From a virus: a stretch of 21,349 bases of DNA. A program made the position numbers and the translations under genes. The stretch spans positions 1 through 21,349 of the IMG/VR virus record IMGVR_UViG_3300006924_000249, one strand, 5' to 3'. Under the pieces are notes generated by a model, which saw only the letters and a list, made by a program, of their open reading frames with translations, was not told where the DNA came from and ran no database searches. Position 1 is the stretch's first letter; each line of letters begins with the position of its first letter. Of this stretch, positions 6,882-9,969 are shown piece by piece.

Positions 6882-8297
6882 ATGGCAATTACAGGTGTAC
6901 CCAATGGGGTAATTAAGCCTTCTCCAACGAAGGCAACTTTAGCTGAGTCTTATATAGACTTTGCTGACGCTGGCGCTAACAGTGCAAACTGGGCACAGCA
7001 ATTTTTACCAGACCTAATGGAAAAAGAAGCTGAAATTTTTGGAAACAGAACTATCGGTGGATTTTTATCTCAAGTAGGTGCTGAAGAATCTATGACTGCT
7101 GATCAAGTTATTTGGTCTGAGCAAGGTAGATTACACTTATCATATACCAGTACTGCTTCTGGTGGTTCTGCTACTGAAACTGATCTTACTTTAGGTGCTG
7201 ATCAAGACGGTAACACTATCAGCGCAAGTAATGCTCACGGTATTAGAATTGGTGATATGGTTTTATTAAGTGATGGAACTACTTCTGTTACTGCTTATGT
7301 AACTGACTTAGGTACTACTGCAGCTACTCAAATCGACGTTGCTACTTATACTGGCGCTAATGTTCCAGCTAACTGTAACGTATTCGTGTTTGGTTCTGAG
7401 TATGCTAAAGGTCAAAAAGGTAGAGCTGAAGGTTTGACTCCAAACTTTAAGTCTTTCACTAACAAGCCAATTATCATCAAAGACAAGTTTGAGATCAACG
7501 GATCTGATACTTCTGCTATCGGTTGGGTTGAAGTTTCTGGTGAAGATGGACAATCAGGTTATTTATGGTATCTAAAAGCTGAAGGCGATACTCGCGTTCG
7601 TTTTGCTGACTACCTAGAAATGGCAATGATTGAGTCAGAAAAAGCTACTGCTACAATCTCTGCTCACAGAGGTGGAAGTGTTAAAGGTACTGAAGGTTTA
7701 TTCGCAGCTGTTAAAGCTCGTGGTAACCAAGCTTCAGGTATCTCTGGTGTTAACGCTGCTACTGATTTAGCTGAGTTTGACGCTATTCTAGCTGAGTTTG
7801 ACAAAAACGGTGCTATCGAAGAAAACATGATGTTTGTTAATCGTTCAACTGCTTTAGCTATTGACGATATGCTAGCTTCTATGAATTCTTACGGTGCTGG
7901 TGGTACTTCTTACGGTGTATTTGACAACGATGAAGACATGGCGTTAAACTTAGGTTTCTCTGGTTTCCGTAGAGGTTCTTATGACTTCTATAAGTCTGAC
8001 TGGAAATATCTTAACGATAAAGTAACAAGAGGATCTGTTTTAGACAACAGCGTTAGAGGAATCTTTATTCCTGCTGGTGTATCTTCTGTGTACGATGAAG
8101 TTTTAGGTAAAAACTTAAAGCGTCCATTCTTACACGTACGTTACCGTGCTTCTGAGACAGATAATCGTAGAATGAAGACTTGGACTACTGGTTCGGTTGG
8201 AGCTTCTACTTCTGACTTAGATGCGATGGAAATGCACTACTTATCTGAAAGATGTTTAGTGGTACAGGGTGCTAATAACTTCATGTTATTATCATAA
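6882..8297 (+). CDS. Major capsid protein (HK97 fold inferred)
   Basis: The 471-aa product is called the major capsid protein from its place after portal and scaffold, its length, and its pattern. It has an N-terminal arm, then a strand-rich loop (70-95) as expected for an E-loop, then a beta insertion at about 100-180 (IRIGDMVLLSDGT, VFVFGSEYAKG). P/A-domain-like segments follow, ending in ERCLVVQGANNFMLLS. Codon use differs sharply from the rest of the window: 22 of its 23 isoleucines use ATT or ATC and one uses ATA, and CGT/CGC arginine codons are frequent. This fits very high expression. The 28-nt leader contains no G, and a strong terminator follows at 8307-8336. The fold itself is inferred, not seen. 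Confidence 0.88.
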   Translation: MAITGVPNGVIKPSPTKATLAESYIDFADAGANSANWAQQFLPDLMEKEAEIFGNRTIGGFLSQVGAEESMTADQVIWSEQGRLHLSYTSTASGGSATETDLTLGADQDGNTISASNAHGIRIGDMVLLSDGTTSVTAYVTDLGTTAATQIDVATYTGANVPANCNVFVFGSEYAKGQKGRAEGLTPNFKSFTNKPIIIKDKFEINGSDTSAIGWVEVSGEDGQSGYLWYLKAEGDTRVRFADYLEMAMIESEKATATISAHRGGSVKGTEGLFAAVKARGNQASGISGVNAATDLAEFDAILAEFDKNGAIEENMMFVNRSTALAIDDMLASMNSYGAGGTSYGVFDNDEDMALNLGFSGFRRGSYDFYKSDWKYLNDKVTRGSVLDNSVRGIFIPAGVSSVYDEVLGKNLKRPFLHVRYRASETDNRRMKTWTTGSVGASTSDLDAMEMHYLSERCLVVQGANNFMLLS

Positions 8298-8306
8298 CCA
8301 TTTATT

Positions 8307-8336
8307 ACTACCTCACCTTCGGGTGGGGTAGTTTTT
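8307..8336 (+). terminator. Intrinsic terminator after the capsid gene (UUCG loop)
   Basis: CTACCTCACC (8308-8317) pairs with GGTGGGGTAG (8322-8331) to give ten pairs with one U-G wobble. The loop is TTCG, the exceptionally stable C(UUCG)G tetraloop, and five T residues follow at 8332-8336. It lies 9 nt past the capsid stop. It should end or stabilise most capsid transcripts and leave partial read-through for the downstream tail genes. Confidence 0.9.
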
Positions 8337-8360
8337 ATTAATTTTTTATTTTATTTTATC

Positions 8361-9200
8361 ATGGCTAAAAAGCAAACAAAAAAGGTTGATGTAGCACCTA
8401 AAGTAGAAGCTACAAATGAAATGCAACAAGTTGTTATTGAAAAAGAACCTGTTGTTAAGAAAAAGAACGAAAAAGTAAATACTTGGGAGTTTAAAGATAG
8501 AGTTTATAGACTTTCTAATAACGCTTCACCTTTAAGTTATTCTATCAAAGTATCAGACATATATTACTTTGATGAAGAAAAAGGTTACGAAAGAGAGTTA
8601 AAACTTACGTCTAACCAAAGAACTGTTTTTGTAGATGAAATGGTGGGCGATCAAAGATTAGAACACGTAGTATTTAGAAATGGTATACTAGTAGTGCCAA
8701 AAGAAAAAGTTGTTTTACAAAAACTACTTTCTTTACACCACCCTCAAAGAGACAAATTGTTCTTTGAAGAAAAACCTGTCGAGCAAGCTATTAACGAGCT
8801 TGATATGATAGAACTTGAAATTGAAGCTCTAATGGTTGCCAGAGACATGGATATTGACATGGCTGAAGCTATTATGCGAGTAGAAATAGGTTCTAAAGTA
8901 TCTGAGATGAGTTCTAAGGAACTTAAAAGAGATTTGATGGTATTTGCAAAGCGAAGACCTATGCTGTTCTTAGAATTAGCGCATGACGACAATGTTCATT
9001 TGAGAAACGTTGGTATTAGAGCTAACGAGATGAAGATTATAAAGTTATCGCCAGACCAAAGAACTTTTTATTGGGCTTCTAACGATAGAAAACTAATGAC
9101 AGTACCATTTGATGAGCATCCGTATTCTGCTTTAGCCGCTTGGTTTAAAACAGACGAAGGTATGGAGGTTTACACAAGTATTGAGAAAAGATTAAATTAA
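8361..9200 (+). CDS. Conserved structural-block protein of unknown function (279 aa)
   Basis: I cannot assign a function. Residues 1-40 are Lys-rich and probably disordered. Residues 43-130 hold a conserved-looking segment with SPLSYSIKVSDIYYFDEEKG (56-75) and VFRNGILVVP (104-113). Residues 135-210 are helical (MSSKELKRDLMVFAKRRP at 183-200). The end is a compact domain with MTVPFDEHPYSALAAWFKT (246-264). I recall relatives beside capsid genes in marine phages, always uncharacterised. It could be a head-completion, decoration or connector protein. The gene is isolated on both sides by UUCG hairpins (8307-8336 and 9212-9237), so its mRNA level may be set separately from its neighbours. The 24-nt A/T leader after the terminator contains no G. 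Confidence 0.8.
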   Translation: MAKKQTKKVDVAPKVEATNEMQQVVIEKEPVVKKKNEKVNTWEFKDRVYRLSNNASPLSYSIKVSDIYYFDEEKGYERELKLTSNQRTVFVDEMVGDQRLEHVVFRNGILVVPKEKVVLQKLLSLHHPQRDKLFFEEKPVEQAINELDMIELEIEALMVARDMDIDMAEAIMRVEIGSKVSEMSSKELKRDLMVFAKRRPMLFLELAHDDNVHLRNVGIRANEMKIIKLSPDQRTFYWASNDRKLMTVPFDEHPYSALAAWFKTDEGMEVYTSIEKRLN

Positions 9201-9211
9201 TCACCTAGTTG

Positions 9212-9237
9212 AGCAGCCACTCTTCGGGGTGGTTGCT
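9212..9237 (+). promoter_or_regulatory. UUCG-capped RNA hairpin without U-tract
   Basis: AGCAGCCACTC (9212-9222) pairs with GGGTGGTTGCT (9227-9237) to give eleven pairs, two of them G-U wobbles, around a TTCG loop. The bases that follow (AAACTAAAAATAC) contain no T-run, so it is not a standard intrinsic terminator on the + strand, and neither flank gives a U-tract on the - strand. It lies 11 nt after one stop codon and 18 nt before the next start. Likely roles are an mRNA 3'-end stabiliser or processing site, or a weak or factor-assisted terminator. Confidence 0.8.
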
Positions 9238-9255
9238 AAACTAAAAATACATATA

Positions 9256-9969
9256 ATGGCGGTAAATATAGATACAGTATATCAAAGAGTTTTGGCTATC
9301 GCCAACAAAGAGCAAAGAGGTTATGTAACACCTCAAGAGTTTAATTTATTAGCTAATCAAGCTCAACTTCAAATATTTGAGCAATACTTTTATGAAGCTG
9401 GTAGACGATCTAGAACAGATGCTGACAAAGTTCCTAATACAGAGCAAATGAACTCTAAAGGTGATGTTAAAGCATTGTTAGATGAAAAACTAGATATTTT
9501 TAAAACAGTATCAACTGTAACTTCTGGTCATACTTTCCCTTCTAACTACACCGTAGGTAAGGTTTGGGCTAATGGATATGAAGCTCAAAAAGTTCCTTTT
9601 AACGATTTAAAAAGAGTTGCAGCAAGTTCTAGACATGTATCTGGAACTACAACCGAGCCAATATATTGCGAAAGCAATACAAATGGTCAAGATGTAATAG
9701 TTTTAAGCGGTTCTTCAACTCCCGCTACAACCGCAGTATCATGCGAGGTATTTAATAAACCGGCAGCTGCAGAATGGGATTATGTTGTTGTAGCTGGCAA
9801 AGCACTATACAACGCTGCAGGTTCAACAAATTTTTCTTTGCACGAAAGTGAAGAAACTGAGCTAGTTAATGTGATACTAGAATTAGCCGGTATAGTAATT
9901 AACAAACCAGGGTTGGTACAGTTAGCGGCACAGAGAGAAGCCAACGCTAAAGCAATTCAAGATAAATAA
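9256..9969 (+). CDS. Putative head-tail connector/adaptor protein
   Basis: The start is set at ATG 9256 (MAVNIDTVYQRVLAIANKEQ), giving 237 aa. An in-frame GTG at 9229 lies inside the stem of the hairpin at 9212-9237 and is rejected. The N-terminal 55 residues are helical (RGYVTPQEFNLLANQAQLQI at about residues 20-39), and the rest is mixed alpha/beta. This N-terminal pattern is familiar to me from marine phages, next to the tail-tube and muzzle genes. Its position after the head genes and just before a second connector-like protein suggests an adaptor or ring between portal and tail, comparable in place to P22 gp4 or the crAss ring proteins. That role is inferred from order. Its TAA overlaps the next ATG by one base, indicating coupled, perhaps stoichiometric, expression. 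Confidence 0.65.
   Translation: MAVNIDTVYQRVLAIANKEQRGYVTPQEFNLLANQAQLQIFEQYFYEAGRRSRTDADKVPNTEQMNSKGDVKALLDEKLDIFKTVSTVTSGHTFPSNYTVGKVWANGYEAQKVPFNDLKRVAASSRHVSGTTTEPIYCESNTNGQDVIVLSGSSTPATTAVSCEVFNKPAAAEWDYVVVAGKALYNAAGSTNFSLHESEETELVNVILELAGIVINKPGLVQLAAQREANAKAIQDK

Follow-up and report, generated by a model that had tools for sequence, protein, structure and literature searches.

What does a stable RNA hairpin do between two late genes of a marine phage when it lies just behind the first of them and carries no U-tract? The question is raised by a junction in the virus record IMGVR_UViG_3300006924_000249, the whole of which (21,349 bases) was analysed and is called the window here. Its genes run in the order terminase, portal, an unassigned gene, capsid, a gene for a protein of 279 amino acids and two virion structural genes. 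The kin of the window are Flavobacterium elemo phages, Cellulophaga phages such as phi38:1, Maribacter phage Panino and an uncultured Manatee Spring podovirus, with capsid protein identities of 43.6–48.1% among the 40 of 85 records listed. The cultured relatives found have Flavobacterium, Cellulophaga and Maribacter as hosts. Hairpins without a U-tract, which we call U-less, also occur in two contigs filed under bacterial bins, one of Sphingobacteriales and one of Maricaulis, and bin membership is not proof of host.

We compared 188 distinct junctions. They were drawn from three scans of IMG/VR, each giving the best 80 of at least 596 relatives, and all counts are counts of this sample. The clade (116 junctions) consists of the window and the loci of two scans; the outgroup (72 junctions) consists of the loci of the third scan together with five named records, four of them from cultured phages and one from the Manatee Spring podovirus. 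A U-tract was called where 8 nt contain at least five T, and five labels assigned by T count were reset by hand from the sequence (L024 and L109 to U-tract; L020, L056 and L126 to U-less).

The stem-loop in the window

The first-pass annotation described two hairpins that bracket a single gene, and two do flank the 279-residue gene (8361–9200, plus strand; PHROG 34748/16922, function unknown). Hairpin 1 (8307–8332, plus strand) lies 3' of the capsid gene (6882–8297, plus strand; PHROG 13704, virion structural protein), is followed by a U-tract and is by its sequence an ordinary intrinsic terminator. Hairpin 2 (9212–9237, plus strand) lies 3' of the stop codon of the 279-residue gene (9198–9200) and fills the gap before the next, co-directional gene, as an intercistronic stem-loop does. 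This next gene encodes 237 amino acids (9256–9969, plus strand, with its ATG at 9256; PHROG 14543, virion structural protein).

The arms of hairpin 2, AGCAGCCACTC (9212–9222) and GGGTGGTTGCT (9227–9237), form 11 pairs, two of them G–U, around a TTCG tetraloop (9223–9226). Across a G/A mismatch the fold continues into an outer stem of 5 bp, TAGTT (9206–9210) with AACTA (9239–9243), giving a structure that spans 9206–9243 on the plus strand. The minimum free energy of the segment 9190–9260 is −24.8 kcal/mol, compared with −10.5 ± 2.6 kcal/mol for shuffled sequences (z = −5.6), and none of 200 shuffles folds as well. An in-frame GTG within the stem (9229–9231, plus strand) had been called a false start of the 237-residue gene, correctly, because the relatives of that gene align from the ATG at 9256.

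Hairpin 2 shares with an intrinsic (Rho-independent) terminator the stable, G–C rich stem and the TTCG loop shortly 3' of a stop codon, and the outgroup has such a terminator at the same junction. It differs in what follows the stem. The tail, AAACTAAAAATA, has no directly adjoining U-tract and holds a single T among the 10 nt 3' of the main stem; a U-tract is likewise absent from 91 of the 116 clade junctions. A terminator scan of the window reported 8307–8332 and not hairpin 2. Hairpin 2 indeed does not look like an ordinary terminator, as had been proposed. In the window an A-rich gap of 18 nt (9238–9255, plus strand) separates the main stem from the start codon; it contains no U-tract, and a promoter would have little space there.

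Searches with the window gave no match to Rfam at the gathering score, and the region 8280–9320 gave eight weak matches, with E values up to 5, none of which touches hairpin 2. We found no account of hairpin 2 among the papers listed, which is not proof that none has been published. Outside open reading frames of at least 100 amino acids, three hairpins in the window have at least nine pairs and at least four G–C pairs: 102–127, 8307–8332 and 9212–9237. The first of these, with 11 pairs, lies inside a small open reading frame (40–261). Among homologues of this frame in four clade contigs, one folds into a like stem (G004, −11.6 kcal/mol) and three fold weakly (G007, G001 and G003; −5.5, −4.2 and −2.9 kcal/mol). 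We dropped 102–127 as a conserved element because only G004 of the four folds into a like stem; it is probably a coding coincidence.

The protein encoded between the hairpins matches no Pfam family at an E value of 0.1 and no fold in the PDB at 0.001. The matches to its predicted model (pLDDT 84.6, pTM 0.61) are all uncharacterised phage proteins, from Tenacibaculum phage Gundel_1 (E = 4.9e-13), Cellulophaga phage phi14:2 (9.5e-6) and crAss-like phages (1.1e-5 and 2.0e-5), with TM-scores near 0.5. A likeness to part of RecA was set aside; the best VIA-align row has Z = 7.7 over 57 residues, a level that the tool calls common. In phi18:3 the capsid and further structural proteins are annotated from MS/MS proteomics and the homologue of the 279-residue protein is not, a weak indication that this protein may serve in assembly instead of forming part of the virion.

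Covariation and conservation of hairpin 2

In the first scan most relatives carry a hairpin in the same slot. Covariation was measured on 40 selected sequences, 37 of them distinct. Paired cells make up 95.3% of this set, and controls with the alignment slid are 27–63% paired. Changes on both sides of a pair occupy 56 cells, against 22.5 ± 3.8 after shuffling, a number that none of 500 shuffles reaches. Two of the five covariation measures do not rise above the shuffles: 149 of 500 shuffles have as many doubly changed pairs, and 391 of 500 have as many further pair types.

The ten inner pairs were then counted in 43 distinct hairpins with a loop of four nucleotides. All 430 cells are paired, 357 as Watson–Crick pairs and 73 as G–U, and no A–C combination occurs; the count omits 11 of 58 stem rows, five with a U-tract and six with other loops or registers. 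The stem finder demands at least seven contiguous pairs, and thus pairing is partly pre-selected in this count, although the further pairs are not. Because the wobbles are G–U and never A–C, the RNA of the plus strand is the form under selection, and the same observation disfavours a structure on the minus strand or an operator read in the DNA.

The first-pass annotation had pointed to compensatory changes in relatives as a check, and these are present: they preserve the stem and in most cases a UNCG loop, which is found in 73 of the 91 U-less hairpins. Much of the stem sequence varies. The annotation had also called the two hairpins alike in design. In the window they do share the TTCG loop, but across relatives they are of two kinds. 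Hairpin 1 keeps its U-tract and its stem changes freely; in hairpin 2, which has no U-tract, it is the stem and the loop that are conserved. At least five T in 8 nt follow hairpin 1 in all 81 loci where both hairpins were found, a further seven of 88 loci having been set aside for want of a hairpin 1 stem by the finder, and follow hairpin 2 in three of the same 81. These three (L020, L056 and L126) have broken T-rich stretches and no run of T.

A covariance model of hairpin 2, whose training set includes relatives of most of the sites that it matched, gives a single strong match per contig, always at this site, in the window and in five other U-less contigs. We therefore rejected the idea of a repeated element, with the proviso that the contigs may be incomplete. 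The model gives no strong match in a U-tract contig (G004) or in the parts of the five named phage records that were searched, where the best score is 16 bits (E = 0.9).

The overall length of the stem is also fairly constant. The main stem mostly has 10–12 pairs. Of the 91 U-less hairpins, 83 have an outer stem of 4 bp or more set apart from the main one, and five of the other eight are uninterrupted stems of 17–18 bp. When main and outer stems are added up, 88 of the 91 have 14–22 pairs and 62 have 15 or 16, with a mode of 16 and a range of 10–22. Such constancy would not be required of a mere block to exonucleases. It brings to mind a site for RNase III or another double-strand nuclease, which would cut the late mRNA, giving the following gene a free 5' end and the upstream gene perhaps a new 3' end. 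The internal-loop hairpins that RNase III processes between the genes of phage T7 have a similar architecture, with main stem, internal loop and outer stem; hairpin 2 is likewise intergenic with an internal loop, but it is shorter, mostly 15–16 pairs, and its cleavage is hypothetical. RNase III sites usually want roughly two helical turns of double strand, of which the 11 + 5 pairs in the window may fall short, and three of the 91 (L010, L046 and L151) have 10–11 main pairs and no outer stem of 4 bp. We consider such a site unlikely.

The junction in clade and outgroup

Three states of the junction occur in the clade. Of the 116 distinct junctions, 91 have a U-less hairpin and six have no hairpin; at the other 19, a U-tract terminator stands directly ahead of a conserved AT-rich block. 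In the first-pass annotation, relatives with the flanking genes kept and the stem gone were to count against hairpin 2. Such relatives exist as a minority, the 19 with a terminator and the six without a hairpin, and the stem is otherwise preserved. Among the 72 outgroup junctions, 63 have a U-tract terminator, none has a U-less hairpin and nine have no stem by the finder; seven of these nine contain a run of six or more T within 110 nt. The terminator is present in all five named outgroup records, phi38:1 among them.

One relative, L158, keeps both flanking genes without a hairpin and has 8 bases between stop codon and ATG; on the capsid tree it adjoins L182, which has kept the hairpin. Because L158 and five other loci (L015, L041, L128, L133 and L174) do without it, the hairpin is dispensable. 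In these five, a long AT-rich leader is found 3' of the 279-residue gene instead. L015 and L041, the two that were followed as far as the next gene, have other genes at the junction, and the 237-residue gene comes after about 1.5 kb of different sequence. Natural absence of this kind is what a chance or inherited hairpin without function would show. Such a hairpin is nevertheless very improbable, given the z of −5.6, the covariation beyond that of shuffled and slid controls and the absence of A–C from 430 cells. Hairpin 2 is real and under selection, strongly favoured yet not indispensable.

The AT-rich block has the core TTATTATGTAACTATA and accompanies the U-tract in 19 of 19 loci and the U-less hairpin in none of 91. 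Directly 3' of the U-tract hairpin it reads GCTAACCTT..ACTTTATTATGTAACTATA..ATAGTAAAATA in the 19 clade members, which include L018, L019, L024, L055, L066 and L071, and it is found once in G004, the one large contig of the U-tract class that was searched. It is a putative promoter or operator of unknown type.

We mapped the U-tract-plus-block state on a capsid tree of 130 rows, made by a quick method from 112 of the 116 clade members and 18 of the 72 outgroup members (thinned by number and by stem presence), with long outgroup branches and a long branch to the window itself. On this tree a single branch divides the outgroup from the rest. The state needs 12 changes, at least ten of them forced by supported branches, and U-tract and block change together in ten of ten independent tree pairs. 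The coupling in 19 of 19 may be physical, the terminator and the block lying close together and being swapped as one cassette. Because the two may travel in this way, the pattern shows two interchangeable modules at the junction and not two independent adaptations.

The sequence TAnnTTTG is the consensus of the Bacteroidetes −7 promoter motif (PMC6847099). Within 110 nt of the stop codon of the 279-residue gene it occurs at 68 of the 72 outgroup junctions (9.0 expected from shuffles) and at none of the 116 junctions of the clade (5.6 expected). At the capsid junction the raw counts are nine of 113 in the clade and two of 72 in the outgroup. An AT-rich block at the capsid junction is present within four mismatches in 100 of 113 clade loci and in one of 72 outgroup loci. 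In the window the corresponding leader of the 279-residue gene (8333–8360, plus strand) has diverged from the clade block by six mismatches and is a possible promoter or leader; in the clade the leader ahead of this gene, TTATTAATTTTATTATATATTATATTATG, is well kept. The pattern fits a shift of the operon border from the 3' to the 5' side of the 279-residue gene, and we infer that the AT-rich blocks may be promoters. Because TAnnTTTG is absent here, the promoters of the clade may be of an unrecognised kind, and the junction at hairpin 2 would be only presumptively free of one. A promoter hidden in the 3' end of the 279-residue gene was rejected on a weak test, the fraction of identical codons at its end (0.64) lying within the 0.50–0.73 of other blocks.

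Could hairpin 2 be a partial terminator? A U-less intrinsic terminator or pause site would act as an attenuator, stopping some polymerases so that the downstream structural genes receive less mRNA. The site is a U-tract terminator in 63 of 72 outgroup junctions and in 19 clade members, and the stem core of this clade class, AGCCAC..C / G..GTGGCT, resembles the stem of the window. The U-less tails, however, are A-rich, with a mean of 4.8 A and 1.7 T in 8 nt. Moreover, all 81 of the hairpins 1 from the same loci have kept the U-tract, and for this reason the system can be said to have U-tracts where it appears to terminate. We judge partial termination improbable, on a par with RNase III processing, both ranking next after protection of the message.

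The spacing of hairpin 2 does not decide which gene it serves, because the distances from stop codon to stem (12.3 ± 2.1 nt) and from stem to ATG (19.8 ± 2.3 nt, in 90 U-less loci) are about equally constrained. An optional small gene, absent from the window, lies between hairpin 2 and the 237-residue gene in L014, L016, L017, L020, L035, L038 and others; by eye, its product has the conserved end Asp-Cys-Gly-Cys ... Phe-Pro-Tyr. In 13 inspected U-less loci where a small gene comes next, the hairpin stays behind the 279-residue gene and none precedes the 237-residue gene. This bears on a translational element, a hairpin that binds a protein or a fold that joins stop and next start, through which initiation of the following gene would be controlled. 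The distance from stem to ATG is kept even where another gene follows, and the UNCG loop is common (73 of 91), as such an element might have it; but the 13 loci speak against attachment to the 237-residue gene, and much of the stem sequence is variable and ill-suited to a sequence-specific binder. Control of translation is accordingly a distinctly unlikely role for hairpin 2.

Start codons of Flavobacterium johnsoniae are reported to have low pairing from −20 to +20 (PMC6847099). The main stem ends about 20 nt 5' of the ATG, about where this region begins. Hairpin 2 would then lie as close to both ribosomes as it could without blocking them.

A candidate role in the late message

Hairpin 2 is a structure of the plus-strand RNA under selection, in a fixed place, with no U-tract and no TAnnTTTG, and it stays with the upstream gene. 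Among the roles first put forward for it, a protector of the 3' end and a processing site are the best readings left; that the 279-residue gene would thereby have its own mRNA is conjectural. Our best explanation, to which we give nearly even weight, is that hairpin 2 may be an intercistronic hairpin in the late mRNA that is read through and protects a 3' end.

Polymerase would pass hairpin 2. Given that the junction has neither a U-tract nor a recognised promoter, leaves a promoter little space and is followed by structural genes, the simplest assumption is that it is read through. The RNA would fold immediately beyond the ribosome that ends the 279-residue gene, close to the region where the next gene is initiated but still outside it. 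An endonuclease would open the mRNA downstream of hairpin 2, and the UNCG-capped stem would block 3'–5' exonucleases, leaving a stable 3' end on the message for the 279-residue protein. The level of this message would be set apart from that of the following structural genes. Hairpin 2 would have replaced a terminator-plus-promoter when the operon border shifted one gene upstream. Read-through, cleavage, protection and the effect on dosage are thus what we infer for hairpin 2. Protection and processing are not exclusive, since a cut near hairpin 2 could make the protected end.

Known systems offer parallels. The intercistronic stem-loop of puf is reportedly a 3' decay terminator. In Escherichia coli, intercistronic hairpins at malE-malF and elsewhere stop 3'–5' decay (PMC5927463). 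Hairpin 2 resembles these in being a stable stem behind the upstream gene of a co-directional operon. It differs in belonging to phage genes, with one site in each contig searched, and in that the outgroup carries a terminator in place of its UNCG-capped stem. The exchange of stem-loop and promoter seen here is closely paralleled in the cip-cel operon of Clostridium cellulolyticum, a case of selective RNA processing and stabilization (PMC4423207): the intergenic stem-loops are orthologous across species, and a relative without them is reported to have internal promoters. That operon has several stem-loops with mapped processing sites; at hairpin 2 such a site is hypothetical.

As to how the junction arose, we tentatively suggest a terminator turned stabiliser, a history that we rate as possible though somewhat doubtful. 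TAnnTTTG would have been lost and then the U-tract, the stem being kept, with a UNCG loop and an outer clamp, as a 3' end made by nucleases. The operon border would have moved upstream to the capsid junction. On the capsid tree, the junction behind the 279-residue gene has switched from one state to the other ten times or more.

If hairpin 2 protects a message that is read through, these phages would set the levels of neighbouring late genes with neither promoter nor terminator between them. The family offers a natural experiment. At one and the same junction, some members have a U-less hairpin, others a full terminator together with a putative promoter, and others neither of these, so that it can be tested directly whether a U-tract is all that distinguishes a terminator from a protector of the message. 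If the terminator did turn stabiliser, the junctions would form a natural series of conversions between the two. A word of caution also follows for annotation, in that a U-less phage hairpin need not be a decayed terminator.
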